Assembly (NCBI GenBank): GCA_013214355.1
Contig: JABSSL010000093.1
Span: forward strand, 1-64,000
DNA: 64,000 nucleotides
Reading direction: 5' to 3'
From: Saprospiraceae bacterium
GTDB taxonomy: Bacteria; Bacteroidota; Bacteroidia; Chitinophagales; Saprospiraceae
Position numbers and translations under genes: made by a program. How positions within the stretch are numbered: position 1 is the stretch's first letter; each line of letters begins with the position of its first letter. Under the pieces are notes generated by a model. That model worked only from the letters and a program-made list of their open reading frames with translations. It did not search any database and was not told the origin of the DNA. Positions 46,365-59,965 of this stretch are shown one piece after another.

Positions 46365-47336
46365 TTAGCTGGTCTTGGCCATATACTGATCCTTATACCA
46401 TTCGAAAGCGATTTTCAATCCTTCCTTGATCGTAAATTGCGGATCATATCCCAGGTAGTTCTTAGCCTTTGAGATGTCCGCCAAGCTATGCTTTACATCC
46501 CCTTGTCTCGTTGGACCAAAAGTGGGTTCCAGCTCACTTCCCGACACTTCCTTCAACATTTCAAACAATTCCAAGATAGTGGTCCGTTCTCCTACCGCCA
46601 CATTGTACACCTCATTCCACGCATCCTCACGAGTAGCAAACAAAGATTTTATGTTGGCCTCAACAGCATTCCCTACAAATGTAAAATCACGACTCTGTAA
46701 GCCGTCGCCATGTATCAGAGGTGGCTTATTGTCCATAATCGCCTTCACAAACAAAGGAATAACCGCAGCATAAGGTCCATTTGGATCCTGTTTAGGACCA
46801 AATACATTGAAATATCGTAAACCTATATAATTGAAGTCATAGAGGTTGGAAAAAACATCTGCATAGAGCTCACAAACCAACTTCGTAACGGCATATGGTG
46901 ATATTGGCTTCCCAATTACCCCTTCTCGCTTAGGCAAAGCGAGACTATCTCCATAGGTAGACGAAGAAGCAGCAAAAACCACCTTATTAATACTAGATTC
47001 CTCTGCAGCTTTGAAGATATTTAAGGTCCCTCCTATATTCACAGCATTCGAAGTATGCGGGTCCTTAATAGAGCGTGGCACGGATCCAAGTGCTGCCTGA
47101 TGTGAGACTAAATCCATCCCCGCACAGGCCTTCAGGCAGGTATCCATATCGCGGATATCTCCTTCCACAAACTCAAAATCAGCACGCTCCAGAAATGGAG
47201 TAATATTCTTTAAATGCCCATTGGATAAGTTATCTAAAACCCTCACTGTATCTACTCTATCATCGGCCAACAAGGCCTCTGCTAAATTGGAGCCAATAAA
47301 TCCGGCACCTCCTGTAATTAGTACGTTTTTTTGCAT
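46365..47336 (-). CDS. NAD-dependent epimerase, WbpP-like UDP-N-acetylhexosamine 4-epimerase
   Basis: Extended short-chain dehydrogenase/reductase interconverting nucleotide sugars. The Rossmann motif GGAGFIGSNLAEALL is at residues 8-22, the catalytic Ser/Tyr-x3-Lys is in SSSTYGD and SPYAVTKLV, and the stretch LGSVPRSIKDP with GLRYFNVFGPKQDPNGPYAAVIP matches the WbpP/TviC/Gne branch that epimerises UDP-GlcNAc to UDP-GalNAc (or the uronic acids). It is the last gene of the minus-strand glycan operon, 22 bp after a GT2 gene, so it likely supplies the HexNAc used by those transferases. Length 323 aa is normal. Confidence 0.88.
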   Translation of the reverse strand: MQKNVLITGGAGFIGSNLAEALLADDRVDTVRVLDNLSNGHLKNITPFLERADFEFVEGDIRDMDTCLKACAGMDLVSHQAALGSVPRSIKDPHTSNAVNIGGTLNIFKAAEESSINKVVFAASSSTYGDSLALPKREGVIGKPISPYAVTKLVCELYADVFSNLYDFNYIGLRYFNVFGPKQDPNGPYAAVIPLFVKAIMDNKPPLIHGDGLQSRDFTFVGNAVEANIKSLFATREDAWNEVYNVAVGERTTILELFEMLKEVSGSELEPTFGPTRQGDVKHSLADISKAKNYLGYDPQFTIKEGLKIAFEWYKDQYMAKTS

Positions 47337-47358
47337 TATCTGCGATATTTATTGCTAC

Positions 47359-48258
47359 TTATTTTGCTGACAATAATCCCAATAGGGCATTCCATCGATA
47401 GAGCATAGTGTACTTACCTTTTATCCACTCTCCTTTAACTGCAAACATCACAGTCAAAACCACACTAGCACCGAGTTTAAACAAAAATTCAAAGACCTTT
47501 TTGAAAAAGGACCAAGGCCCAACATCTTTTACTCTAATGCGTTCTTCACTGCCAAACTTCCGGCTCAATCGTAGAAAGTTTTCATCCGTAGTTCGGTAGG
47601 CATCGATGTTGTGTTGAACTACCGCTTCTGGATAATGAAAAACCTGGTTTGACACCTCCTTAATCGCGAAGAATATATATTTATCGTCTGCTCTCCATTT
47701 TAAGTTTTCATTAAAACCTCCTACCTGCTCTAATAGATCTTTTCGATAGGTCATGTTACATCCTGCTGGATAATTTTTTCCAGTGTAAGTAAAGACCTGA
47801 TCTCCAAAATCCACCTTTGTCACAAAACCGTATAAGTATTTATTCATCCATGGAGGGGGGCTGCCTTCGTATTTTGGTAGTATCCTACCGCCGATTCCTG
47901 CCGTCTGTGGCCGTTTCTCGAAGTAGGAGAGCACCTTCTCAAGGAAGTCTGCCTCGGCTTCAGCATCGTCATCAATATAGGTGATGATCGGTGCCATGGC
48001 TTCCTTGATTCCCCGGTTTCGGGCATAAGAAAGACCTTGGTTCGATTCTACGAAGTAGCGAACATTAAGTTTCGGATTTGCCGCAATGAAGTCCTGGCTG
48101 ATCTCCGGTGTACTGTCTGTAGAATTATTATTGATAATTAGTATTTCAAACGCTTCTGGCGCTAGGGTTTGCGTCGTTAGACTCTGCAGGGCGTGACCGA
48201 GAAATTTTTCTCGGTTGTAGGTGCATATAATGAGCGAAATACGGGGTTTTGATGACAT
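47359..48258 (-). CDS. Glycosyltransferase family 2
   Basis: Inverting GT-A transferase. The N-terminus has ISLIICTYNREKFLGHAL and INNNSTDSTPEI, the metal site YIDDDAEAEADF, and a substrate region with CNMTYRKDLLEQVGGFNENL and WRADDKYIFFA. A C-terminal hydrophobic segment (LGASVVLTVMFAVKG, about residues 262-278) anchors it to the membrane. It overlaps nothing but is only 4 bp from the preceding GT42/DUF115-like gene, so translation may be coupled. Donor and acceptor are unknown; within this cluster a role in O-antigen or capsule assembly is likely. Confidence 0.9.
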   Translation of the reverse strand: MSSKPRISLIICTYNREKFLGHALQSLTTQTLAPEAFEILIINNNSTDSTPEISQDFIAANPKLNVRYFVESNQGLSYARNRGIKEAMAPIITYIDDDAEAEADFLEKVLSYFEKRPQTAGIGGRILPKYEGSPPPWMNKYLYGFVTKVDFGDQVFTYTGKNYPAGCNMTYRKDLLEQVGGFNENLKWRADDKYIFFAIKEVSNQVFHYPEAVVQHNIDAYRTTDENFLRLSRKFGSEERIRVKDVGPWSFFKKVFEFLFKLGASVVLTVMFAVKGEWIKGKYTMLYRWNALLGLLSAK

Positions 48259-48262
48259 TCCG

Positions 48263-49141
48263 TTACGATTCTAGTACTTCTGAGATAGGCTTCCGATCAA
48301 AGGCATCGATGAAAGAACCTTCTGTACAATTGTAAATGTTTACGCCTTTTGACTCAGCAAGATCTTTAAGGTCGAAATAGGCTCGAAAAGAAAACATGAA
48401 CTTCTCGAGGATCTCATACAATTTTCTCGGTTTTTTCCCAGATCGGTACATGCGTTGACTTTTAGAGCTTTCGGCATCATAGAAATGCTGCTGATTTACT
48501 AAGGCATTGTTGTTTTCATCCACACTGATCATGGGTATCCAGGAGTGGTCCGCTCCGACAAGAGCAATGGTTTCAAATCCGCTATTTATCATATTCAAGA
48601 TGGAAGGAATCAACACATTGTGGGGTCTAGGGCTTCCCAATCTATTGCGCAACAGCCAATTGGACACACCTGGTAAGCCTTCTACTGGCGTTGTATTATA
48701 GAAAACGATCGTAATATTGGTGTTTTCACGAATCTCTTGTAAGAAAACGGGATTAGATTTGCTACTTTCCGGAATATAGAAGAATAGCGGCCATGTAGTT
48801 CGTTCAACCGCAGCCTTTATCATATTCAACCGCCCTTGATGATGTGGATCAATAGTATCTGTGGCCCAGAATTCTTCCGAGCATATCACATAATATCGCG
48901 GTTTCAATCGTACATAGTGCTCCGTATCAGGGAATTTATTGACACATACCAAGGTATGATTCTCCAAAACCTCGGCATAATCAGACAATACCTTCTTCAA
49001 GGAGGGTCCATTGCCCAAAATGATACAACTCCCTTCACTGATATGTTTCTGCGGTCTCAAATTCGACCGCAGGATAACCTTCATTACAGTAAAAAGGCTT
49101 TGAGTAGCTTTTTGTAGAAATTGATAGAACCTTTCTAGCAC
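48263..49141 (-). CDS. GT42 sialyltransferase-like / DUF115-like glycan protein
   Basis: The nucleotide-binding motif GNGPSLK is at residues 43-49 in CIILGNGPSLKKVLSDY, followed by LVCVNKFPDTEHY, VLKP-like RLKPRYYVICSEEF, and later IALVGADHSWIPMI. GNGPSL near the N-terminus with a following small residue patch is shared by GT42 (Cst-type) sialyltransferases and by DUF115/MptE-like proteins; the fold is related. Position next to CMP-sialate-synthetase-like and NeuB-type genes favours transfer of a nonulosonic acid (inference). Start: GTG at 49141, or ATG at 49084, which would still keep the motif. Only 18 bp lie after the fusion gene and 4 bp before the GT2 gene. Confidence 0.6.
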   Translation of the reverse strand: MLERFYQFLQKATQSLFTVMKVILRSNLRPQKHISEGSCIILGNGPSLKKVLSDYAEVLENHTLVCVNKFPDTEHYVRLKPRYYVICSEEFWATDTIDPHHQGRLNMIKAAVERTTWPLFFYIPESSKSNPVFLQEIRENTNITIVFYNTTPVEGLPGVSNWLLRNRLGSPRPHNVLIPSILNMINSGFETIALVGADHSWIPMISVDENNNALVNQQHFYDAESSKSQRMYRSGKKPRKLYEILEKFMFSFRAYFDLKDLAESKGVNIYNCTEGSFIDAFDRKPISEVLES

Positions 49142-49159
49142 TAGACGCTGATTTATTAA

Positions 49160-50560
49160 TTATTGGGGTTTACTGATTGCTGTCCGTTTATTTTGATGTA
49201 GCAACTCGGCTAGTTTGAGATCAAAATCTGAGAAAATTCCGAAGGCAGATTCCTCATCGATGGTAATATGTCCAACTTTCCCACCAACAATTTTTCCGTT
49301 AGCTTCAAAAGCCGAAACCCTGCACAACGTAATCCCACCAATTGCCTTAAATAGAGCCTCCCTCTCTAGTCTGGTAAACTTTTCTTGATTCAAAATTGGC
49401 ACCATCCCTTCTCCATGGTGCTGATAAAATGTAGACCTTTCGATGCGAACACTAATCAAAGAATCTGCATTAAAGATAGAGAGACTATTGATCGCATCAT
49501 CTATCACTTCAGATTTTAGGAAAGGGTATTCAATCGGTAGCAGCATGAAAGCTTCAGGCTTCCTGCTCGAGATGGTTGGATGATTCAACACTAAATCCAC
49601 AGTACCTGCCAATGACACATTGTAACGCGCTAAATCGCTAGTTCTAGCAATAAAAACAACTTTTTCATTATTAGCATATCTTTCCTCCACATAGTTTTCG
49701 ATGGTCTCATCCTCAGAGGTAATCACTATCCTATCCAACAATTCAGTTTCTAGAAGGCTCTTAATCTTTAGCTCTAGTAAGCTTTCCCCTCCTACTTTGA
49801 CAAATGCCAATTGGTTGGCATAGAATTTCGTATTCCGAACAGGAATGATGCCTATAGTTTTCGGTGTGAATATATCATGCTTCGAAATGAAGTTGTCATT
49901 TATTTTCCTTCTGGTATCTAAGATGCGGTTTTCATTGGTCGTCAGATTCTGGCCATGCTGTCGATAATAAAATAGGGATTGGGAGTTATTAGCGACTCTA
50001 AACCTGGAAATAAATTTTATCCATAATTCATATCCGTCTTGACAAGAATATTGCTCATCATAACCACCTACCGCTCTTAAGAACTCCAGCCTAATCATAG
50101 TACAAGCCCCATGTGCTGGTTGATCCAGCAGGGTTACCTCCTTATCAAAATTATGCCGCTTCACCTCCGCAATCCTTTCTTCATTCGCATCAACTAAGAA
50201 ATAATTTGGAAAAACTAAGCCCAAGTCAGGATCTGCTTCAAGTTGAGCGTACATCTCTTGCAAGGCATTTGGTGCCAAGTAATCATCCGCATCAAGGCGC
50301 ATGATATACTTACCACTTGCTAGCCTCATGGCTATATTATTGGTGATATTTAAGCCCTTATTTTGCTGATAAATGATTTTAACCTTATCGTAAGTAGAGT
50401 AGGATTCGATTATGCTCCGAGAATTATCCGTGGATCCATCATCAATTATTAGCAATTCAAAATCTTGCATCGTTTGATGCAAAACACTCTCCACTGCTTT
50501 TCGGATATACTTCCCATAATTGTAGTTCGTGATATAAACGGTTATTCCAACTTCACTCAT
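49160..50560 (-). CDS. Bifunctional GT2 glycosyltransferase fused to a divergent CMP-nonulosonate cytidylyltransferase-like domain
   Basis: The 466-aa protein has two parts. Residues 1-225 are a GT2 transferase: YITNYNYGKYIRKAVESV, LLIIDDGSTDNS (D40-S43), the DxD-type metal site RLDADDY (D90-D93) and GGYDEQYSCQDGYELWI. From about residue 233 (near base 49865) a second domain begins KTIGIIPVRNTKFY, resembling the IIPARxGSK start of CMP-sialate/CMP-KDO-type synthetases but with a changed loop; then LDRIVITSEDETIENY, LLPIEYPFLKSEVIDDAI, ADSLISV and near the end VGHITIDEESAFGIFSDFD follow the NeuA layout (ID...D in the last block). Such a fusion would couple activation and transfer. Activity of the altered loop is uncertain. 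Confidence 0.75.
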   Translation of the reverse strand: MSEVGITVYITNYNYGKYIRKAVESVLHQTMQDFELLIIDDGSTDNSRSIIESYSTYDKVKIIYQQNKGLNITNNIAMRLASGKYIMRLDADDYLAPNALQEMYAQLEADPDLGLVFPNYFLVDANEERIAEVKRHNFDKEVTLLDQPAHGACTMIRLEFLRAVGGYDEQYSCQDGYELWIKFISRFRVANNSQSLFYYRQHGQNLTTNENRILDTRRKINDNFISKHDIFTPKTIGIIPVRNTKFYANQLAFVKVGGESLLELKIKSLLETELLDRIVITSEDETIENYVEERYANNEKVVFIARTSDLARYNVSLAGTVDLVLNHPTISSRKPEAFMLLPIEYPFLKSEVIDDAINSLSIFNADSLISVRIERSTFYQHHGEGMVPILNQEKFTRLEREALFKAIGGITLCRVSAFEANGKIVGGKVGHITIDEESAFGIFSDFDLKLAELLHQNKRTAISKPQ

Positions 50561-50619
50561 TATATAATAGTTTAAGTTAGCTCTTAGGGATTACAAAATC
50601 TCTAAGAGCTAATACAGCA

Positions 50620-51741
50620 CTAGGGCCTTGCTCCTAGCTTAATGAACTTAACGCTACTCACCCAATTCTTATTCTTAACCTGAATTAAGTACGGAGCAGG
50701 CAACAGAAAACCCAAGTCCAAATAACGATCGCTAGGATTCAATTGCATTTGGGCTACTCGCTGACCGGCCATAGAATATATTTCCACTGAATAAGCATCT
50801 CCGAGTTCTGGCAATCCATCAACAAATACTCGTCCAAGTGAGGGATTAGGATAAAGAAAAACCTTACTTGTTACTGGCTCCTGCGTAGAAGAAACCAATG
50901 GCTTATAAATAGCTAAACCAGCGGGACCGCTTAATCCGTCTTCTTCATCAAGAATCACCTCGGCATTACTCCCATTCAAATTGGCCTGCGTAATCGTCTT
51001 TAATGTAAAATCAGTCCAGTAGATCTTTCCAGCATCAGCATCTATCCTAATGCGGAAAGGGGTATCTAGATTTTCTGTAATGATAATTTCCTGGTTAGAT
51101 CCATTAAGGTTGGAACGGCCAATGTTGTCATTGACACTATCTGTCCAATACAGCTTTCCATTCTGAAAATCAAGATCTAGCCCCCCTGGATTGGCAAGTC
51201 CAGTGACAAGATCTATGATGTTAGTTCCTTCAAAGGTCGATCGTTGAATTTTACCTGTCTTTCTATCTGTCCAATAAATATGTTCGTTGGCAATATCCAA
51301 TGCTATGCCATGAGGCTCTTGAATGCCACTTTCTACGATCGTAGTCCTATTACTTCCGTCTAAATCTGATCTTTCAATTTTGCTGGTTCCAAAGTCTACC
51401 CAATATATCTTCATGTTTATCAAATCCAGCGCTATGCCTCTCGGGTTTTCTAAACTAGCAAAGACTACGTCTTCAATATTAGTCCCATCTAATTTAGCAC
51501 GTTGGATCTTCTTCTGCCCTTCATCCGTCCAGTACATCATCTGATGGACCGTGTCTAGAGCCAGGCTGTACGGGCTCACTAATCCTTCTGATACCACTGG
51601 AGTAATTCCTCCACCTTCGATCGTAGATTTTTCAATTAATTCATCGACACCATCCGTCCAGAATAAATTTTTTTGAGCATGTAGTGCATCGGACCAGCCC
51701 ATGACTAACACACAGACCAAAAGTAAAGCGCTTGCTTTCAT
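50620..51741 (-). CDS. Secreted YWTD-type beta-propeller with T9SS sorting domain
   Basis: Signal peptide at 1-22 (LLLVCVLVMGWSDALHA). At least five YWTD-like repeats follow: MMYWTDEGQKKIQRAKLDGT, KIYWVDFGTSKIERSDLDGS, HIYWTDRKTGKIQRSTFEG, KLYWTDSVNDNIGRSNLNG, KIYWTDFTLKTITQANLNG; with the N-terminal LFWTDG repeat they make a six-bladed propeller as in LDL-receptor class B modules. The last ~85 residues carry VFLYPNPSLGRVFVDGLPE, a T9SS type A sorting domain. It sits inside the glycan operon, 21 bp after the methyltransferase gene and 59 bp before the fused transferase gene. T9SS cargo is attached to surface polysaccharide, so co-location may be functional (inference). Confidence 0.87.
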   Translation of the reverse strand: MKASALLLVCVLVMGWSDALHAQKNLFWTDGVDELIEKSTIEGGGITPVVSEGLVSPYSLALDTVHQMMYWTDEGQKKIQRAKLDGTNIEDVVFASLENPRGIALDLINMKIYWVDFGTSKIERSDLDGSNRTTIVESGIQEPHGIALDIANEHIYWTDRKTGKIQRSTFEGTNIIDLVTGLANPGGLDLDFQNGKLYWTDSVNDNIGRSNLNGSNQEIIITENLDTPFRIRIDADAGKIYWTDFTLKTITQANLNGSNAEVILDEEDGLSGPAGLAIYKPLVSSTQEPVTSKVFLYPNPSLGRVFVDGLPELGDAYSVEIYSMAGQRVAQMQLNPSDRYLDLGFLLPAPYLIQVKNKNWVSSVKFIKLGARP

Positions 51742-51762
51742 GATTCAATATTTTAGAGATAA

Positions 51763-52581
51763 TTAGAGATTTGACGCAAATCCATAAATTGTGTACTTTC
51801 CGCTTGGGTCTTGAATCTGTTTACTTTCCAAAAGGTTAAATCCGCTTTTCTCAATTAGATACTTGAAAGATTGTAAGTTGAAGGTTGTATAGTGATCTAA
51901 AAAAAATTCGCTATGATCTACCAGCTCATCGTTTTCCGCTGGGACTGAACCATCCGGCAATTCTACATATAGTATTCCCCCTGGCCGAAGATTTCTTTTG
52001 ACGTTGGTCAAAACTTGAACAGGGTTAGTTACATGTTCTAACACTTTATTAAAGGTAATGAGGTCAAACTGCGTTCCCAAGGTATAGTCCTCGACTGATC
52101 CTGTAAATGCATCCTTCACCCCTATATTCTTCAAGGCATGTGCGGTTGATGCTTGATCAGGATCAATACTATGTACTTCTACACCAAATTTCATTAGTTC
52201 ATGCAAAAACACGCCCGTTCCGCTTCCTACATCTAGTGCAATCATATCAGCAGGTGACCGATCCTTTTTGTATAGGTATTCAATGATTCTAAGAACGCGA
52301 TTTTTGTTATCAGACTGGTGAAAGGGAAATTGAATGATCTTATTAAATCGCCGTTCCAGGTTACCTTCTACGATTGATGCATTATAGTGTCCTTCATAAA
52401 AATCTGAAGAGATCAAATTGTTGTGTCGATTGAAGTATACACCACAATTCGAACATTCACAGATTTCTCGATAATACTTCTCAGCAGGAATTCCATAATC
52501 TGTTTCCCCAGCAGGCTTCTTCTTCAGCACTTTTAACACCTTCCAATCTCTTTGTCCGCATAAATAGCAATTTGAAGTCAT
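51763..52581 (-). CDS. Class I SAM-dependent methyltransferase with N-terminal zinc-ribbon-like segment
   Basis: The N-terminus has a probable zinc ribbon: CYLCG and, some 30 residues on, ECSNCGVYF (CxxC pairs). The Rossmann core follows: MIALDVGSGTGVFLHEL is motif I, VHSIDPDQASTA motif II, DLITFNKVLEHVTNP and PGGILYVELPDGS later motifs. Similar proteins methylate sugars in O-antigen and antibiotic clusters, although the acceptor here is unknown. The ATG at 52581 is chosen over a TTG at 52602. It follows neuB after a 163-bp gap occupied by an inverted-repeat element and is part of the operon. Confidence 0.85.
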   Translation of the reverse strand: MTSNCYLCGQRDWKVLKVLKKKPAGETDYGIPAEKYYREICECSNCGVYFNRHNNLISSDFYEGHYNASIVEGNLERRFNKIIQFPFHQSDNKNRVLRIIEYLYKKDRSPADMIALDVGSGTGVFLHELMKFGVEVHSIDPDQASTAHALKNIGVKDAFTGSVEDYTLGTQFDLITFNKVLEHVTNPVQVLTNVKRNLRPGGILYVELPDGSVPAENDELVDHSEFFLDHYTTFNLQSFKYLIEKSGFNLLESKQIQDPSGKYTIYGFASNL

Positions 52582-52616
52582 GATCTGTTCTACTTTTATC
52601 AAATACCTCAGGCTTC

Positions 52617-52751
52617 TAATTAACCCAAGTTGCGATGAATGAGCGCAAAAAAGGAAGATTTTGCAAAAAACAGAGCCGAGAACTTAGTTTTGCAGCAAAT
52701 ATCTGACGCATTGGGGCTCTTGAGGATGAATCGCAACTTTGCATTAATTAA
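52617..52751. repeat. Nested inverted-repeat element between neuB and methyltransferase genes
   Basis: Outer arms taattaa (52617-52623) and its complement near 52745-52751, then aagttgcgat (52627-52636) with atcgcaactt (52730-52739), and an inner agagcc/ggctct pair form a ~135-bp hairpin-like structure. The neuB stop codon lies within the right-hand arm. It could be an inserted MITE-like element or an operon-internal RNA structure that tunes downstream expression. Confidence 0.6.
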
Positions 52752-53757
52752 AATACGCCCACTCCAATTTCTGATGCTCCTTCACATCTACCAAAAGTTT
52801 TTTCCCAATTAGCTGGTCAAATTCACGCGCATCAATCCCGGTATTGGGACGTAAACAGATTAAATCTTCGGCACGAATGATGGTATTCTTGGGTAAATCC
52901 GTTTTGGGGTAAACGCTGCGGCGAAAGGTGACCACATGATCTCCTTCCACCGTAAGAGGACGCTTAATCGAATCCCCTCTTAGTTGATAAATAGTCTTGA
53001 TATCTGCTATCAAGCTTAAGACCTCCGATTGTGTCAAAGATACTTTATGATCTCTGAAGCTCTTCCCTTCTCGACTATCTGTGAAGTGAAATTCCAGGAT
53101 CTCAGCTCCCATAGCAACGGCAATCTCCAATGCTTTGCTGCCTTCCGTATGATCGGAGTAGCCAATGGGCAAACCCGTTATACTACGATAGGACTGCATC
53201 ACCGCAAGGTGGGCAGCATCCGCTGGGATAGGGTACATGGAAGTACATTGCAGAATCGATAGATAATCTGGATCCTTGTAGCACTCATCTTGCTCCTGAA
53301 TATAGCGTACCGCCTCTAATACTTCTTGAAAAGTAGATAATCCAGTAGATAATATGATCGGCTTCTGCAAAGCAGCCGTGGCTTTTAATACGGGATAGGC
53401 CGTCATATCCCCTGATCCAATTTTGTAGATGGGCAGGTAGGGATCGATCCATTCAAAATAGGCTGGATCCCAGACAGAAGCCATAAAACCAACTCCCGCA
53501 GCTTCGCACATTTGGGCTAACGCTATATACTGCTCCTGACTCAATTCAAACTTCTTGAAGTGTTTGTTTCGGACAGGATTTTCAAGCTTACTAACCAAAG
53601 TATCTCCGGAGTACAACTGAAATTTAACAAAGTCCACTTCCGCCCCAATCGCCAATTCAGTAAGTGCTTTCGCATATTCGAAGTCTCCCTCGTGGTTTCC
53701 TCCGATCTCTGCAATCAATAATGGGCCATGTTTGCCCTGCCAAGTATTTCTTTTCAT
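52744..53757 (-). CDS. neuB: NeuB-family nonulosonic acid (sialic-acid-like) synthase
   Basis: Condenses phosphoenolpyruvate with an N-acyl hexosamine to make a nonulosonic acid. The NeuB TIM barrel is clear: LLIAEIGGNHEGDFEYAKAL, VDFVKFQLYSGDTLV, SVWDPAYFEWIDPYLPIYKI-GSGD, IILSTGLSTFQEV, QCTSMYPIPAD, IGYSDHTEGSKALEIAVAMGAEI and LEFHFTD near 225 (EKHFT/ERHFT in characterised enzymes), then the FRDHKVSL block. A C-terminal SAF/antifreeze-like domain (VYPKTDLPKNTII, LICLRPNTGI, about 270-335) completes it. Whether the product is neuraminic, legionaminic, pseudaminic or another acid cannot be read. A neuC-type epimerase is not visible. 337 aa is the normal size. Confidence 0.88.
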   Translation of the reverse strand: MKRNTWQGKHGPLLIAEIGGNHEGDFEYAKALTELAIGAEVDFVKFQLYSGDTLVSKLENPVRNKHFKKFELSQEQYIALAQMCEAAGVGFMASVWDPAYFEWIDPYLPIYKIGSGDMTAYPVLKATAALQKPIILSTGLSTFQEVLEAVRYIQEQDECYKDPDYLSILQCTSMYPIPADAAHLAVMQSYRSITGLPIGYSDHTEGSKALEIAVAMGAEILEFHFTDSREGKSFRDHKVSLTQSEVLSLIADIKTIYQLRGDSIKRPLTVEGDHVVTFRRSVYPKTDLPKNTIIRAEDLICLRPNTGIDAREFDQLIGKKLLVDVKEHQKLEWAYFN

Positions 53758-53794
53758 ATGGTTTTCTTAAGCTTTTAGGCTTTCTCCAACTATA

Positions 53795-54346
53795 TTACAT
53801 GCGTTCGCTAATCTTCCTCGCTGGTATCCCGCCTACAATCTCATAGGGAGCAACATCATCTTTCACCAAAGCGCCAGCCGCAATCACAGCTCCCGTTCCA
53901 ATACGGACTCCTTTCAAGATCTTAGCCCCAGTCCCAATCCAAACATCATCGCCAATTTTAATCGGAGCGGTTTGATTTGGTTGACGGTTAATTAATTGAT
54001 TTCGAGCTATAGTATGATCACTATCCACTAGATAAACAAAGGGCGCGATCAGACAGTTGCTCCCAATCTCAATTCCTGCCGAAGCAAACAAATAGGAGTG
54101 ATAGCCAAAAGTAGTATTCTCCCCAATGCGAACGGTGGCACTTTCATTACAGGCACAAATGCGCGCACCTGATTTGATTACCATATTCGCACCTAAAAAA
54201 ATATTCTTTGGATATCGCATTAAGTGCACATCTTTCTCGAAATGGACTCCCTCTCCACATGCCCCTAACCTCCTTTTCTCTCGCCAATATCGATATCGAC
54301 TAGCCAAAGTGGGTTTAAGGTGTTTTCTAAGTTGCTGGTTACCCAT
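53795..54346 (-). CDS. Hexapeptide-repeat (LbetaH) acyltransferase
   Basis: Left-handed beta-helix transferase of the CysE/LacA/NodL/NeuO-like group, usually O- or N-acetylating sugars with acetyl-CoA. Imperfect hexapeptides run from about residue 50 ([67 protein letters not shown]) and the loop [12 protein letters not shown] holds the likely catalytic His. The ATG at 54346 is preferred over an upstream GTG at 54385. First gene of the minus-strand glycan operon, 37 bp ahead of neuB, so an acetyl group on the nonulosonic acid or its precursor is the likely use. It diverges from wzx. Confidence 0.85.
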
Positions 54347-54496
54347 TCTATGCTGAATTGAAGAACAATAGACTGCCTGCCTCACCTGAAGAATGAAACA
54401 AGTAGATGCTTTCCTGCGTTTTTCGGCTAAAGCATCTCAAAAGTATTAATAAATGGTGATATTGCATTTGCTAGATACCAGTAATGTATAGGCCAA

Positions 54497-56017
54497 ATGG
54501 GGATTATCAAGAGACAAGCCATTAAGCAAAGTATTGTGAACTACCTCGGGGTGGCCATCGGCGCCATTAGTGTGGTTTTCATATATCCCTTGGCGACAGA
54601 AACCGTTGGACTAGCCCGTTTTTTGATAGATACTGGCACGCTCCTAGCTCCATTTCTACTGCTTGGTTTTGGGGGCGTTACCATTAAATTTTTTCCTGAA
54701 TTTAAAACGGAGGACGGTGAGAATAATGGTATGCTTGCCTTTATTTTAAGTGTCCCCACCGTTGCGGCCCTTGTTTTCACACTGCTCATCATCACATTTC
54801 GGCTTCCGATTCAAGATTATTTACAGGAAAGTGGACGGGAGGAAAGCTTTCAAATGTTTTGGATGTACTTCGTTCCCATAGCCATTTGCTTGGCCTTCTT
54901 TCAGCTTCTATATAACTACAGCACTAACTACGGACGCATTGCCGTTCCCGCCATTTTCCAAAATTTCATAAAAATCGTTCTACCTACCACCATACTAATG
55001 TGGTACTTTGAATTAATCAACTTGTCTTTCCTGGTTTGGGCCTTAGTCATCAACTATATAGTCGTATTAATAGCCATCCTTTTATACCTAAGAAACCAAG
55101 GACATCTAAAGCTTGTAACAAAGTGGAATTTTCTGGATGCAGATCGACGTAAACGTATATTCAATTATGCTTTGTTCGGGTTATTTGGCGGTATTGGTAG
55201 TGTGCTAGCTTTTCGGATAGATTCCTTTATGATTTCCACCTTAATAGATCTAGAGAGCAATGGCATCTTTACTATAGCAGCATTTATTGGTAATGCTATA
55301 GCTATCCCAACGAATGCAGTGAACCAAATTAGTTCTCCCATAATTACAAAGGCGATCAAGGAATCAGATTTTGTTGAGGTAAGTAAAATCTATAAAGGAG
55401 CCTCCGTCAACTTATTGGTGGTGGGGCTATTGCTCTATGTACTAGTAGCCTGCTCTGTAGAAAACCTGTTCCACTTGATGCCTTTTGAAGAAGCAAAGTC
55501 TGGTGACCCAGCCTTTATTCGCCAAGGAATAATTATTGTTTTGTTGGTGGGTTTTGCGCGCATCATCGATATGGCTACCAGTGTAAACAACCCCATCATA
55601 AACTTTTCTCCCTATTATCGCTTTGGCTTGTATGCCATTCTCATCCTAGGGGTTTTCAACATTTTCACGAATCTCTTCTTTATCAAAACCCTAGGCTTAG
55701 GAATAGTTGGTGTGGCTTTAGCCACCTTGGTAGCATTAAGTCTTTATAATCTCGTCAAGCTAATCTTTATCTATTGGAAATTTGGGGTTCACCCCTTTAG
55801 CGCAGCAACGGTCAAACTATTTGCCATTGCTAGCCTTGCAACCATAGCGGCCTATTTCATTCCTACCAGTGGAGCAAGTGCATGGCATTCTATTTTAGAT
55901 ATTGCCATCAAATCTGCGGTGGTATTGATGATCTACCTACCATTGGTCTTGCGATCTAAGGTTTCTCCTGATGTCAACGAGTTGGTAGAAGGAGTACTAA
56001 AGCGGTTCCGAAAGTAG
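54497..56017 (+). CDS. Wzx-type oligosaccharide flippase (polysaccharide biosynthesis protein)
   Basis: Multi-pass inner-membrane flippase of the MOP superfamily that moves undecaprenyl-linked repeat units to the periplasm. About 12-14 hydrophobic helices are distributed over 506 residues, with short polar loops; the N-terminal IIKRQAIKQSIVNYLGVAIG and FGLFGGIGSVLAFRIDSFMI regions are typical of the Polysacc_synt family. It is on the opposite strand from the sugar genes, sharing a 150-bp divergent promoter region with the acyltransferase gene. No wzy polymerase or ligase is recognised in the window. Confidence 0.88.
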   Translation: MGIIKRQAIKQSIVNYLGVAIGAISVVFIYPLATETVGLARFLIDTGTLLAPFLLLGFGGVTIKFFPEFKTEDGENNGMLAFILSVPTVAALVFTLLIITFRLPIQDYLQESGREESFQMFWMYFVPIAICLAFFQLLYNYSTNYGRIAVPAIFQNFIKIVLPTTILMWYFELINLSFLVWALVINYIVVLIAILLYLRNQGHLKLVTKWNFLDADRRKRIFNYALFGLFGGIGSVLAFRIDSFMISTLIDLESNGIFTIAAFIGNAIAIPTNAVNQISSPIITKAIKESDFVEVSKIYKGASVNLLVVGLLLYVLVACSVENLFHLMPFEEAKSGDPAFIRQGIIIVLLVGFARIIDMATSVNNPIINFSPYYRFGLYAILILGVFNIFTNLFFIKTLGLGIVGVALATLVALSLYNLVKLIFIYWKFGVHPFSAATVKLFAIASLATIAAYFIPTSGASAWHSILDIAIKSAVVLMIYLPLVLRSKVSPDVNELVEGVLKRFRK

Positions 56018-56836: not shown

Positions 56837-58282
56837 ATGCTATTAACTATGCCGGTTACAAACTGCGCCAACGGTACACTTGCCCCATACGTTGGCAACC
56901 TCACACAGGACCAGGTGCTTCACCTTTACCGTCGAATGGGCTTTGGTGCTACGCCCCAGCAAGTGGCGGATGGTATAACCAAAAGCGCCAATGACCTAGT
57001 GGACCAAATATTAGACGAAGCACTAAATATGCCGCTCCCCGCAGCACCAGAATGGGCGGACTGGTTGATCAGTGATTACGATGACTTTAATGAGCAACGA
57101 CAAGAACAGTTTATCAGTTGGGTCTTGCAATGGGTCAGGGACATGCTCTCCAATGGTTTCCGTGAAAAGATGGCGCTCTTCTGGCATAGTCACTTTGTGA
57201 CTCGCTTCGAGAGCTATCAATGCCCTTCCCAACTATATCAATATCATAAGTTATTACAACAGCATGCACTAGGAAACTTTAAGACTTTCACTCATGAGAT
57301 GGGTAGAAATCCCGCCATGCTTGTATTCTTGAACGGCGTGCAAAACACCAACATTGAACCAAATGAAAACTATGCTCGGGAGCTATTCGAACTGTTCACC
57401 TTAGGGCGAGACAATGGATACACCCAGGGAGACATTCAAGAAGCGGCTAGAGCGCTAACTGGATGGGTTGGCTACTTCTCTCCCTGTGGCCCTATCGGTT
57501 TTGTGGATGTCTACCACGATACTGGAGAGAAGACCGTTTTTGGTAGAACAGGAAATTGGGGATACGACGAATTACATGATATCCTTTTTGAAGAGCGAGC
57601 AGATCTAATTGCTAAGTACATCTGTGGCAAACTTTATCAACACTTCGTACATCCGGAAATTGACAATGCGATAGTAGCAGAATTGGCTACTACATTTCAA
57701 GAAAATGACTTTGCATTAGCACCTGTTATTCGACAGCTGTTTAAGAGCGAGCACTTTTTTGACTCCTTTGTCCTAGGCACCATCGTCAAAAGTCCATTCG
57801 ATTGTCTGATCAGCTTTACTCGTGAATCGGGTGTGCCCCTAAATGATCAAGTCATTGAAGGAATCGGATATTTAGGATTTAGTCTCGGGCACACGCTATT
57901 TAGCCCTATAGATGTAGCAGGCTGGCCAGGAGATCGGAGTTGGATTGATACGGATTCCCTAACTGGACGTTGGCAGGGCCTAGACTTCATCATCTTCTAT
58001 ATCTACGAAAACCAGCCAGAATTCTTCCGCGAACTGGCTAAAAGGCTAGCAGGAGACTCCAATGACCCGGACTTTGTCGCTCAAGTATTGGCTGATTATT
58101 TTATTTCTAATGGACTGTATAAGTCGGACATGTATGATCGGACTACCACCGTACTAAAATGGGAGATTCCGCAAAATTACTTTGAGAGCGGAGATTGGAA
58201 TCTAGAATGGGATACTGTTCCTATTCAAATCGCACTCACATTAAGGCATTTAGCTCGCCTTCCTGAATTTCAAATGCAATAA
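56837..58282 (+). CDS. DUF1800 domain-containing protein
   Basis: Family of unknown function nearly always paired with a DUF1501 gene, as here (48 bp gap). The sequence shows the helical signature: LYRRMGFGATPQQVADGI near residues 30-48, FREKMALFWHSHFVT, HEMGRNPAMLVFLNGVQN and NENYARELFELFTLG (about 185-200), the most conserved DUF1800 stretch. No signal peptide is evident (the first ~40 residues are polar), which is unusual given the exported partner. Length 481 aa is standard. ATG at 56837 is used; another ATG 12 bp on is equally placed. Biochemical role unknown. Confidence 0.88.
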   Translation: MLLTMPVTNCANGTLAPYVGNLTQDQVLHLYRRMGFGATPQQVADGITKSANDLVDQILDEALNMPLPAAPEWADWLISDYDDFNEQRQEQFISWVLQWVRDMLSNGFREKMALFWHSHFVTRFESYQCPSQLYQYHKLLQQHALGNFKTFTHEMGRNPAMLVFLNGVQNTNIEPNENYARELFELFTLGRDNGYTQGDIQEAARALTGWVGYFSPCGPIGFVDVYHDTGEKTVFGRTGNWGYDELHDILFEERADLIAKYICGKLYQHFVHPEIDNAIVAELATTFQENDFALAPVIRQLFKSEHFFDSFVLGTIVKSPFDCLISFTRESGVPLNDQVIEGIGYLGFSLGHTLFSPIDVAGWPGDRSWIDTDSLTGRWQGLDFIIFYIYENQPEFFRELAKRLAGDSNDPDFVAQVLADYFISNGLYKSDMYDRTTTVLKWEIPQNYFESGDWNLEWDTVPIQIALTLRHLARLPEFQMQ

Positions 58283-58330
58283 GCCAAGGCTTATTGGAAT
58301 CGCTCATTTTAAACTCAAAATAATCTTACC

Positions 58331-59965
58331 ATGTGTAATCATCATAAAGATCAAAAACCCAAAGGCCGATACGGCAGTGCCCTGGAACACGGGGCTGCAC
58401 ATACGCATGATCATCAAAGCTGGAGTCGCAGAACTTTCATGAAAAATCTCGGGATTGCTGGCAGTGTGTCGATGCTCCTGGGAAGAACTCCTTTAACTGC
58501 CTTATCCTCCTCACCGCTAAGTATGGCGCTGAACACCACCGAATCAGACAACATACTAGTCTTGATTCGTTTTAAAGGGGGAAATGATGGTCTCAATATG
58601 ATTGTTCCTGTTTTTGATTATGGTACTTATAAAAACTATCGCCCAACCATTGCCATTCCAGAAGATCAATTAATCAGTCTAAGTGATAGTTTTGGAATGC
58701 CTAATACTATGGCTAGCGTACAAGGAATGTGGGAAGACGGAGCAATGAAGGTTGTCAATAGTGTTGGCTATGATGACCAAAACCTTTCTCATTTCCGGTC
58801 TACAGATATTTGGTCCTCCGCTAGTGATGCCAACGAATTGGATTCAAGTGGCTGGCTGGGGAGACTGCTAGACAAGCAATTTCCCGATTATATCACAGAT
58901 CCTCCTACTTCTCCGCAGGCCATCCAAATTGGAGGATCGGGGACTTCAATCTTCTACAATCGTGATTCCGTGAATCTGGGCGTGACGGTGAATGATCCTG
59001 AAGAATTGTTTCAAATTGCCCAAAATGGTGAGTTATATGATGCCTTAGATGTTCCAGAATGTCGTTATGGAGAGCAATTAAGTTTCGTACGTACGGTAGC
59101 CAATAGTACGTCTCGTTATGCGGAGATCATTGCCTCTGCCTATGAGGCGAGTACCAATGCGATCGAATATGGTCCTAATTTAGGAGAGCAGTTGGCACTC
59201 GTAGCAAGGTTGATCAAAGGAGGGCTGGAAACAAAACTATACATGGTCACCTTGGACGGCTTTGACACCCACGCCAATCAGAATGGTAGTCATCCTAATC
59301 TAATGTATAATCTCACTACTTCTGTGAAAGCTTTCTATGAAGATCTCGCCGCCTCTGGCGTAGCCCATAGAGTGCTAAGCATGACCTTTTCCGAGTTTGG
59401 AAGAAGAATTGAGCAAAATGCTTCAGGAGGTACTGATCACGGAGCAGCAGCACCGATGATCTTATTTGGCGAAGGTTTAAATGGCAATGGCTTCTTAGGG
59501 GCTGCCCCAGATCTTCAGAACCTGGACCAGGTTGGCAACCTCCAATATGACCTGGACTTCCGACAAATCTATAGTACTGTTCTTGAGAACTGGTTGTGTA
59601 TTGATCCCAACTTGGTTGACGAAGTTTTAGGTCGAAGCTTCGAGCGCTTGCCCGATCTAGGATTAACCTGCCAAACTCCGACTTCAACGATCGAGCAACA
59701 AGCTGCCTTGCTAAACCATCGAGCCCTGTACGACCAAGGTCGAATAGTAGTTGAATATACCCTACCAGAGTCTATGCCAGTGAAGGTGCAAATCTTCGAC
59801 ATCCTCGGTCGGCCAGTAGAAACACTTTTTGAAGGCTATCAGATGCCAGGGACGCATCGTCACAACTTCCAAACCTGGGGAAATCGGATTTCCTCTGGAA
59901 TTTACATCTACCATATTATGGCCGGAAGGCGTGCATACAGTAATAAAATTCGCATAGCCAGATAA
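58331..59965 (+). CDS. DUF1501 protein with twin-arginine signal and C-terminal T9SS sorting domain
   Basis: Partner of the preceding DUF1800 gene; sulfatase/phosphatase-superfamily-like DUF1501 fold, function unknown. The N-terminus holds a long His-rich n-region, then WSRRTFMKNLGIAGSVSMLLG, a Tat signal with R33-R34. The DUF1501 domain covers about 55-450 with RFKGGNDGLNMIVP at its start, SEFGRRIEQNASGGTDHGAA near 357-376 and the VTLDGFDTHANQ block. The final ~75 residues are a T9SS type A sorting domain (VQIFDILGRPVETLF, ISSGIYIYHIMAG). The combination implies Tat export across the inner membrane followed by T9SS crossing of the outer membrane. It probably works with the DUF1800 protein. 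Confidence 0.87.
   Translation: MCNHHKDQKPKGRYGSALEHGAAHTHDHQSWSRRTFMKNLGIAGSVSMLLGRTPLTALSSSPLSMALNTTESDNILVLIRFKGGNDGLNMIVPVFDYGTYKNYRPTIAIPEDQLISLSDSFGMPNTMASVQGMWEDGAMKVVNSVGYDDQNLSHFRSTDIWSSASDANELDSSGWLGRLLDKQFPDYITDPPTSPQAIQIGGSGTSIFYNRDSVNLGVTVNDPEELFQIAQNGELYDALDVPECRYGEQLSFVRTVANSTSRYAEIIASAYEASTNAIEYGPNLGEQLALVARLIKGGLETKLYMVTLDGFDTHANQNGSHPNLMYNLTTSVKAFYEDLAASGVAHRVLSMTFSEFGRRIEQNASGGTDHGAAAPMILFGEGLNGNGFLGAAPDLQNLDQVGNLQYDLDFRQIYSTVLENWLCIDPNLVDEVLGRSFERLPDLGLTCQTPTSTIEQQAALLNHRALYDQGRIVVEYTLPESMPVKVQIFDILGRPVETLFEGYQMPGTHRHNFQTWGNRISSGIYIYHIMAGRRAYSNKIRIAR

Follow-up and report, generated by a model that had tools for sequence, protein, structure and literature searches.

We examined a 64,000-nucleotide stretch of DNA from a Saprospiraceae bacterium (positions 1 to 64,000 of contig JABSSL010000093.1; hereafter the window), in which a gene at 49160..50560 on the minus strand encodes a 466-residue protein that joins a GT2 glycosyltransferase domain (residues ~1-225) to a remodelled cytidylyltransferase domain of the NeuA type (~230-466). 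We put at roughly 60% the probability that this fusion is a glycosyltransferase whose C-terminal half is an exapted pseudo-cytidylyltransferase that would recognize a nonulosonate, or a cytidine monophosphate (CMP)-nonulosonate, with activation of the sugar performed by a separate enzyme. On family evidence, the surrounding genes form a surface-glycan locus of the nonulosonic-acid type, because a divergent clade of NeuB synthases occurs in relatives alongside a cytidylyltransferase of the CTP_transf_3 family, tailoring enzymes, glycosyltransferases and a flippase. What is unusual is the conserved union of a GT2 domain with a pseudo-cytidylyltransferase.

The window belongs to an 11.2 Mb, Lewinella-like draft genome (G000; genomes, contigs and loci are cited by our own handles). 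Relatives of the fusion with organism names occur in metagenome-assembled genomes of an uncultured Lewinella sp. (78% identical) and of a member of the Saprospiraceae (64%). Among the open-licence papers that our searches returned, no title or abstract opening describes a GT2-cytidylyltransferase fusion, and none links nonulosonic acid to Saprospiraceae; the matches that combine Lewinella with sialic acid look unrelated by title.

Ancestry of the fused domain

The N-terminal half of the fusion matches the GT2 profile PF00535 clearly (111 bits, 8.1e-32), and its DADD and QDG motifs are kept in all 16 fusions collected, which comprise 15 from Saprospiraceae and a distant GT2-cytidylyltransferase-like protein, 29% identical to that of the window, from G630, a genome that belongs to a different family in the phylum. 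The fused domain (the C-terminal 237 residues) scores 14.2 bits against Pfam CTP_transf_3 (PF02348) and does not reach the gathering cut-off of 22.6, which the fusions of G076 (25.2 bits), G002 (23.0 bits) and G001 (22.9 bits) narrowly pass. When a profile of the 15 family members (L117, the G630 sequence, left out) was aligned by hhalign with seven stand-alone NeuA-type enzymes, the match scored 99.7% (E 1.9e-26) over 219 columns, and a 16-row profile that includes L117 scored 99.8%; the NeuA set holds seven distinct enzymes from 11 loci, L085 having not been extracted and three duplicates having been removed. Against other sets, the fused-domain profile scored 95.5% (PseF), 93.6% (KdsB) and 1.2% (SpsF-type). 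As controls, 20 column-shuffled profiles reached at most 1.2% against NeuA, and the GT2 half gave 0.2-0.3% against the four sets, except for a less clean 9.2% with the SpsF-type set.

Searches of solved structures point the same way. An hmmsearch of the fused domain against the PDB returned PpNeuA (E 6.4e-4) and the CMP-N-acetylneuraminate (CMP-NeuAc) synthetase 6ifd (E 0.0018), and Foldseek, run on a weak model of the C-terminal half (predicted local distance difference test (pLDDT) 50.5; template-modelling (TM) score ~0.37), ranked a CMP-NeuAc synthetase first (E 2e-4), with other cytidylyltransferases close. Taken together, the hhalign scores, PDB profile matches and Foldseek ranking indicate that the ancestor of the fused domain is a CMP-nonulosonate synthetase of the NeuA type. 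An earlier, sequence-only reading of the window had described a cytidylyltransferase-like domain joined to GT2; profile methods alone bear this out, Pfam staying below its cut-off for the window protein. The C-terminal half does not lack a cytidylyltransferase-like fold, but the activating role proposed for it fails for another reason.

Loss of catalytic residues and conservation of other motifs

That reason emerges from an alignment of 12 stand-alone enzymes with the 16 fusions. The cytidine triphosphate (CTP)-binding loop GGSK...KN is present in every stand-alone enzyme (11 with GGSK, one with AGSK, all with KN) and in none of the fusions. The position equivalent to Gln104 holds Gln (7) or Tyr (5, PseF) in the stand-alone set and Pro, Ala, Asp or Ser in all 16 fusions. 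Of the metal-binding pair (D209 and D211 in Neisseria meningitidis), at least one Asp is present in 12/12 stand-alone enzymes as against 1/16 fusions, the window protein having Gly and Phe. The Arg of the PxR motif is retained in 15 of the 16. For the Neisseria meningitidis CMP-Neu5Ac synthetase, mutation of D209, D211 and Q104 and the K142A change are reported as causing the greatest losses: activity of D209A fell below measurement, kcat dropped 15,000-fold in D211A, and severe impairment was seen in several Q104 mutants, in Q104A chiefly through the Km for the sugar (PMC2901514). The active site of the fused domain therefore seems either gone or rebuilt and its CMP-activating role lost, and labelling this half as a sugar activator is probably wrong.

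Loss of these residues is not accompanied by signs of decay. The ratio of nonsynonymous to synonymous substitution (dN/dS) in the fused domain is 0.02-0.04 for G001-G002, the only one of five pairs that could be computed and one with dS near saturation, and the motifs H.G.GM, ER, GG and GKVGH are invariant in a nine-fusion alignment, with small exceptions among the 15 family members. This low ratio and these invariant motifs indicate, at the level of sequence, that the fused domain is not decaying.

The domain is like the NeuA/LegF CMP-synthetases (PF02348; 1EYR, 6IFD, 9T4Z) in its full-length profile homology to them and in having them among its Foldseek and PDB profile matches; unlike them, it stands behind a GT2 domain, is without the CTP loop or catalytic Gln, has lost the metal Asp in 15/16 cases and has conserved residues of its own. 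Campylobacter jejuni CgtA-NeuA (Cj1143) also joins a glycosyltransferase to a NeuA-type domain, but its NeuA half is active and its glycosyltransferase belongs to another family, whereas here the NeuA half has no catalytic residues and a separate enzyme is present.

A separate cytidylyltransferase as the probable partner of NeuB

The window genome carries a stand-alone CTP_transf_3 gene on another contig (G000:C124:78964-79716), the product of which passes the PF02348 cut-off with 70.5 bits, has an intact R..S(S/T)R..GK loop and is presumably of the SpsF type, to judge by its kind of sequence. The sequence-only statement that no stand-alone neuA is seen is accordingly true of the locus and misleading for the genome. 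The C124 enzyme is 48% identical to a copy in G057 and orthologous to copies that adjoin, or are fused to, NeuB in relatives. G057, G076 and G034 combine a fusion with a stand-alone CTP_transf_3 gene (84-87 bits) located between the acyltransferase gene and NeuB, and the acyltransferase gene directly precedes the cytidylyltransferase/NeuB pair in relatives. Nine genomes (G034, G057, G072, G076, G222, G281, G382, G425, G429) have a cytidylyltransferase immediately before NeuB, and seven of them have the fusion. A search of ten genomes found an orthologue of the separate enzyme in eight of the nine that carry the fusion, and the substrate loop is kept in 14 of 14 separate cytidylyltransferases, one of them with His for Pro. 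In four members of the window's genus, the gene is displaced from the locus to a position next to a symporter gene; the symporter (L066:6354-9716 in G000:C124), an 850-residue sodium:solute protein with a long N-terminal extension, is divergent from the cytidylyltransferase and kept in all four genomes.

The window's synthase gene (52744..53757, minus strand) encodes a NeuB-family protein of a divergent clade with a SAF domain (PF03102 203 bits, cut-off 22.1; SAF 33.5 bits). In G630, its homologue and the cytidylyltransferase are one 571-residue protein (L117:9767-11482), the gene for which adjoins those for an acyltransferase and the distant GT2-cytidylyltransferase-like fusion. This gene fusion is strong evidence that NeuB has the separate cytidylyltransferase, rather than the GT2 fusion, as its partner in activation. 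A comparable pairing of a NeuB-family synthase with a putative cytidylyltransferase exists in the sps genes of Bacillus subtilis (SpsE/SpsF), where, in the spore-crust legionaminate pathway as outlined there, SpsF acts on the free sugar once it is made; unlike that system, which has the precursor set SpsM, SpsC, SpsD and SpsG, the locus studied here has none of these genes and includes a GT2 fusion (PMC7439481).

Distribution of the fusion and of the NeuB clade

Among 398 Saprospiraceae genomes searched, 15 carry a full fusion; eight further matches in the family are weak, and seven of these carry an intact NeuA loop (L085 left out). The divergent NeuB clade (E 1e-60) likewise occurs in 15 of the 398, 13 of them shared with the fusion (L016 and L017 were taken as G003:C684 and G336:C106 and not counted twice). 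The four discordant genomes, which have the fusion or the NeuB clade alone, are 62-91% complete, and in all of them a contig ends beside the locus. The contig ends within NeuB in G210 and G336, and the short fusion contigs of G012 and G362 have neither cytidylyltransferase nor NeuB. A phylum-wide search at E 1e-20 recovered the fusion only in the window genome (1 of 395); because this search missed G630, which was found through NeuB, other distant fusions may have been missed too. Beyond the phylum, the search took in plasmids, where the fused domain had no match, and, for the whole protein, one short-peptide scan of genome contigs.

The commonest gene order, subject to losses, is epimerase, acyltransferase, cytidylyltransferase, NeuB, a tailoring gene (either of two methyltransferases, MT or MTb, or a second acyltransferase, AT2), fusion, MptE-like gene and GT2; in the window's genus, the epimerase is at the opposite end of the locus. 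Among the three glycosyltransferase candidates, only the fusion always accompanies NeuB where the contig extends far enough, the second GT2 gene (GT2b) not lying next to it in G057, G076, G210 or G630. The GT2-pseudo-cytidylyltransferase is apparently a dedicated partner of the divergent NeuB clade. Comparison of neighborhoods across Saprospiraceae, which the sequence-only reading had proposed, agrees with that reading in that NeuB, tailoring and glycosyltransferase genes travel with the fusion, and departs from it in the cytidylyltransferase that stands beside NeuB in the nine relatives listed above.

Proposed role of the fusion and competing explanations

In the pathway that we favor, which would produce a sugar of the nonulosonic-acid type (a 3-deoxy-2-ulosonate) and attach it within a surface glycan, the divergent NeuB would condense an aldose with phosphoenolpyruvate, and the separate cytidylyltransferase (the C124 enzyme here; beside or fused to NeuB in relatives) would make the CMP-sugar, as its family and linkage suggest. 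The hexapeptide acyltransferase and the methyltransferase would tailor the sugar, the GT2 half would transfer or extend the nonulosonate, with the fused C-terminal half recognizing that sugar or its CMP form, and Wzx would export the product. The earlier proposal that this gene set makes, modifies, activates and transfers a nonulosonic acid stands at the level of family resemblance, apart from activation by the fused enzyme.

Several points weigh against this assignment. Both binding by the fused domain and formation of the CMP-sugar by the separate enzyme are what we infer from sequence, and the NCBIfam models that match the latter are those of 3-deoxy-manno-octulosonate (KDO) cytidylyltransferases only (one copy also matches GlmU weakly), all below cut-off. 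The nonulosonate label rests on homology of NeuB and the cytidylyltransferase, since no known precursor route is common to the carriers. AlphaFold models are poor, with a mean pLDDT of 44.8 for the full fusion and the 50.5 cited above for the C-terminal half with three sequences. The 12 stand-alone controls are interrelated (they include five PseF enzymes, of which the window's genus contributes four); the second metal position is acidic in 5/16 fusions (four Glu, one Asp), so that a subclade of fusions may still bind metal; and the distant G630 fusion lacks most of the conserved block. The co-occurrence of fusion and NeuB clade (Fisher p 1.3e-20) comes from a test that ignores relatedness, and in many genomes of the family searches only part of the first-look candidates were scored. 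G012, which is 91% complete, has a fusion, on a 3.1 kb contig, but searches there found no member of the NeuB clade and no separate enzyme. Finally, a further GT2-like gene (L029:5272-6015) lies close by in the stretch analyzed from G057, where the fusion is thus not necessarily the sole transferase.

As an alternative, it is plausible, if short of an even chance, that the GT2 half is an ordinary uridine diphosphate (UDP)-sugar transferase that extends a nonulosonate-terminated acceptor, with the fused half binding that acceptor and, where present, the MptE-like protein encoded at 48263..49141 (minus strand; 292 residues) transferring the CMP-nonulosonate. Consistent with this arrangement, chondroitin synthase is the best solved-structure match of the GT2 half, and 12 of 15 family carriers have the MptE-like gene after the fusion. 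The MptE-like protein, a candidate, accessory nonulosonate transferase, scores 21.4 bits against PF01973 (cut-off 34.6), and all eight of its orthologues match that family at E up to 0.1 (best 2.8e-9). Flagellin nonulosonate transferases of the Maf/PseD kind have a core that belongs to the MptE-like family, and the window protein is similar to them in its weak MptE-like match and its GNGPS...VN signature; unlike them, it is only 292 residues long, below threshold and encoded in an exopolysaccharide-type locus with a flippase, and its match to the PseD model (E 0.0034) is far under cut-off, which makes the link to Maf/PseD a weak one. Set against the arrangement is the failure to detect a homologue of the MptE-like protein in G057, G076, G210 or G630, where another enzyme would have to transfer the nonulosonate; its absence from those four loci leaves the fusion as their glycosyltransferase.

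A second explanation, to which we give tentative weight and which concerns the sugar itself, is that the NeuB product is neutral, resembling 2-keto-3-deoxynononic acid (KDN), or is another 3-deoxy-ulosonate made from a sugar of general metabolism, and not a classical amino nonulosonate. The window's NeuB misses both NCBIfam equivalogs, scoring 257.7 against NeuB_NnaB (TIGR03569, cut-off 399.65) and 177 against PseI (TIGR03586, cut-off 340.25). Among 12 fusion genomes, NeuC passes its cut-off in two and PseG in four, all of the window's genus, six having neither; N-acetylglucosamine (GlcNAc)-2-epimerase was found in six. The PseG of the window genome belongs to a separate pseudaminate locus (G000:C79, L034:9560-15013), in which PseB, PseC, PseF, PseG and PseI all exceed their NCBIfam cut-offs. 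Five fusion genomes (G012, G072, G076, G336 and G382) have none of NeuC, PseG and GlcNAc-2-epimerase over cut-off, and in G012 and G072 there is no match to them at all; these five are drafts, 75-94% complete, which tempers the argument, and the gene searches took in these three enzymes, Kdn-9-phosphate phosphatase being left out. The entry title of PpNeuA, to which the fused domain has its best PDB profile match, names a CMP-Kdn synthetase, and a Kdn-9-phosphate synthetase that uses mannose-6-phosphate is described (PMC6200933). In the other direction, G630 has PseB and PseC genes over cut-off beside its locus. A neutral, KDN-like product is possible.

We consider doubtful a more specific form of our reading, in which the fusion would be, to our knowledge of the described families, the first transferase of the GT2 fold (GT-A) to use a CMP-nonulosonate donor, with its C-terminal half a pseudoenzyme exapted from the upstream step and the nonulosonate made outside any known precursor pathway. 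A scaffolding or allosteric role for the fused domain, in which it would bind no sugar and persist because it aids folding or docks the protein to NeuB or the separate cytidylyltransferase, is improbable. Such a role would fit the faster divergence of the fused half (32-68% identity to the window within the family, as against 61-83% for the GT2 half) and the N. meningitidis CMP-Neu5Ac synthetase dimer, in which active sites are described as shared between subunits (PMC2901514); it fits less well with the clustering of H.G.GM, ER, GG and GKVGH in the second half of the domain, which, by alignment, is where NeuA has its sugar-side motifs.

Least probable is an active fused domain that charges the sugar with CMP and hands it to its own GT2 half: its full-length homology to CMP-nonulosonate synthetases, the lack of a neuA inside the locus, the G012 fusion with no separate orthologue detected, the acidic second metal positions and the PxR Arg speak for it, but the CTP loop and catalytic Gln/Tyr are lost in all 16 fusions and an intact separate enzyme exists in eight of the nine fusion genomes searched, beside NeuB in seven carriers and fused to it in an eighth. 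We rejected the fused domain as sole activator on the lost motifs, the separate enzyme and the G630 NeuB fusion, and the new activation route suggested from sequence alone is unlikely, both metal Asp being absent from 15/16 fusions.

Organization of the locus

The locus spans eight minus-strand genes at 46365-54385 with intergenic gaps of 4-141 bases, in the order epimerase, GT2, MptE-like, GT2 fusion, YWTD/LDLR-B propeller, methyltransferase, NeuB and LbetaH acyltransferase. Gene calls and PF01943 agree with the eight co-directional genes and divergent wzx first described, although the propeller gene went unnamed in that list; Pfam and NCBIfam matches likewise uphold the NeuB synthase, LbetaH acyltransferase, methyltransferase, two GT2 domains and WbpP-like epimerase. 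The protein labelled GT42/DUF115-like keeps only its second name, through the sub-threshold PF01973 match: no GT42/CST family in Pfam matches it at E up to 1, and the four weak matches of a PDB profile search include no sialyltransferase, so the GT42 label was rejected.

At one end lies an NAD-dependent sugar epimerase similar to TviC/WbpP (46365..47336, minus; PF01370 179 bits; best NCBIfam model TviC, 324 bits, under its cut-off of 760). Its orthologues in G382 and G425 adjoin a TviB-like nucleotide-sugar dehydrogenase, which makes a part in nonulosonate synthesis unlikely; the enzyme probably makes another sugar of the glycan. The adjacent GT2b gene (47359..48258, minus; PF00535 108 bits) keeps its order in several relatives.

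Upstream of the fusion are a YWTD/LDLR-B beta-propeller with a type IX-like sorting tail (50620..51741, minus; PF00058 177 bits; PF18962 26.1 bits, cut-off 27), which is possibly a cargo or glycan-carrying protein, and an S-adenosylmethionine (SAM) methyltransferase (51763..52602, minus; PF13489 78.8 bits), a probable tailoring enzyme. The G076, G362 and G429 loci also encode similar propellers, and those of G336 and G425 encode LamG proteins with a type IX-like tail. The LbetaH hexapeptide acyltransferase gene (53795..54385, minus; PF00132 62 bits) is followed by a divergent Wzx-type polysaccharide flippase (54497..56017, plus strand; PF01943 32.5 bits against a cut-off of 28.2). In G001, G002, G003, G072, G222 and G281, a flippase homologue is likewise divergent from the acyltransferase gene, and in G057 and G210 it lies at the opposite end of the locus. 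Beyond the window's flippase gene, at 56837-59965, open reading frames of 481 and 544 residues resemble a DUF1800/DUF1501 pair; reading frames of 477 and 544 residues take the equivalent position next to the locus in G001 and G002.

The tailoring position varies among relatives, the methyltransferase being replaced by an acyltransferase or another methyltransferase (MT/MTb/AT2). Relative to G001 and G002, of the same genus (g1), where an acyltransferase takes the place of the window's methyltransferase, flanking genes are 86-93% identical, as against 50-52% for the fused half and 51-53% for the MptE-like protein. Compared with L026/L028, the tailoring gene, fusion and MptE-like gene at 48263-52602 appear to have been swapped as a cassette. 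Joint change of the fusion and MptE-like protein with the tailoring gene is as expected if both recognize the tailored sugar; it amounts to one event in g1, and identity matrices show by eye no general correlation across the family between fused-domain similarity and type of tailoring gene.

Implications

Were our reading correct, an activating enzyme would have been recycled as the recognition arm of a transferase that uses its product, an exaptation between neighboring steps of a pathway. The NeuB clade that it accompanies would be one whose substrate, in several carriers, apparently cannot come from the NeuC, LegG or PseG routes. For the Saprospiraceae, the fusion would then provide a marker gene for a nonulosonate-type polysaccharide.

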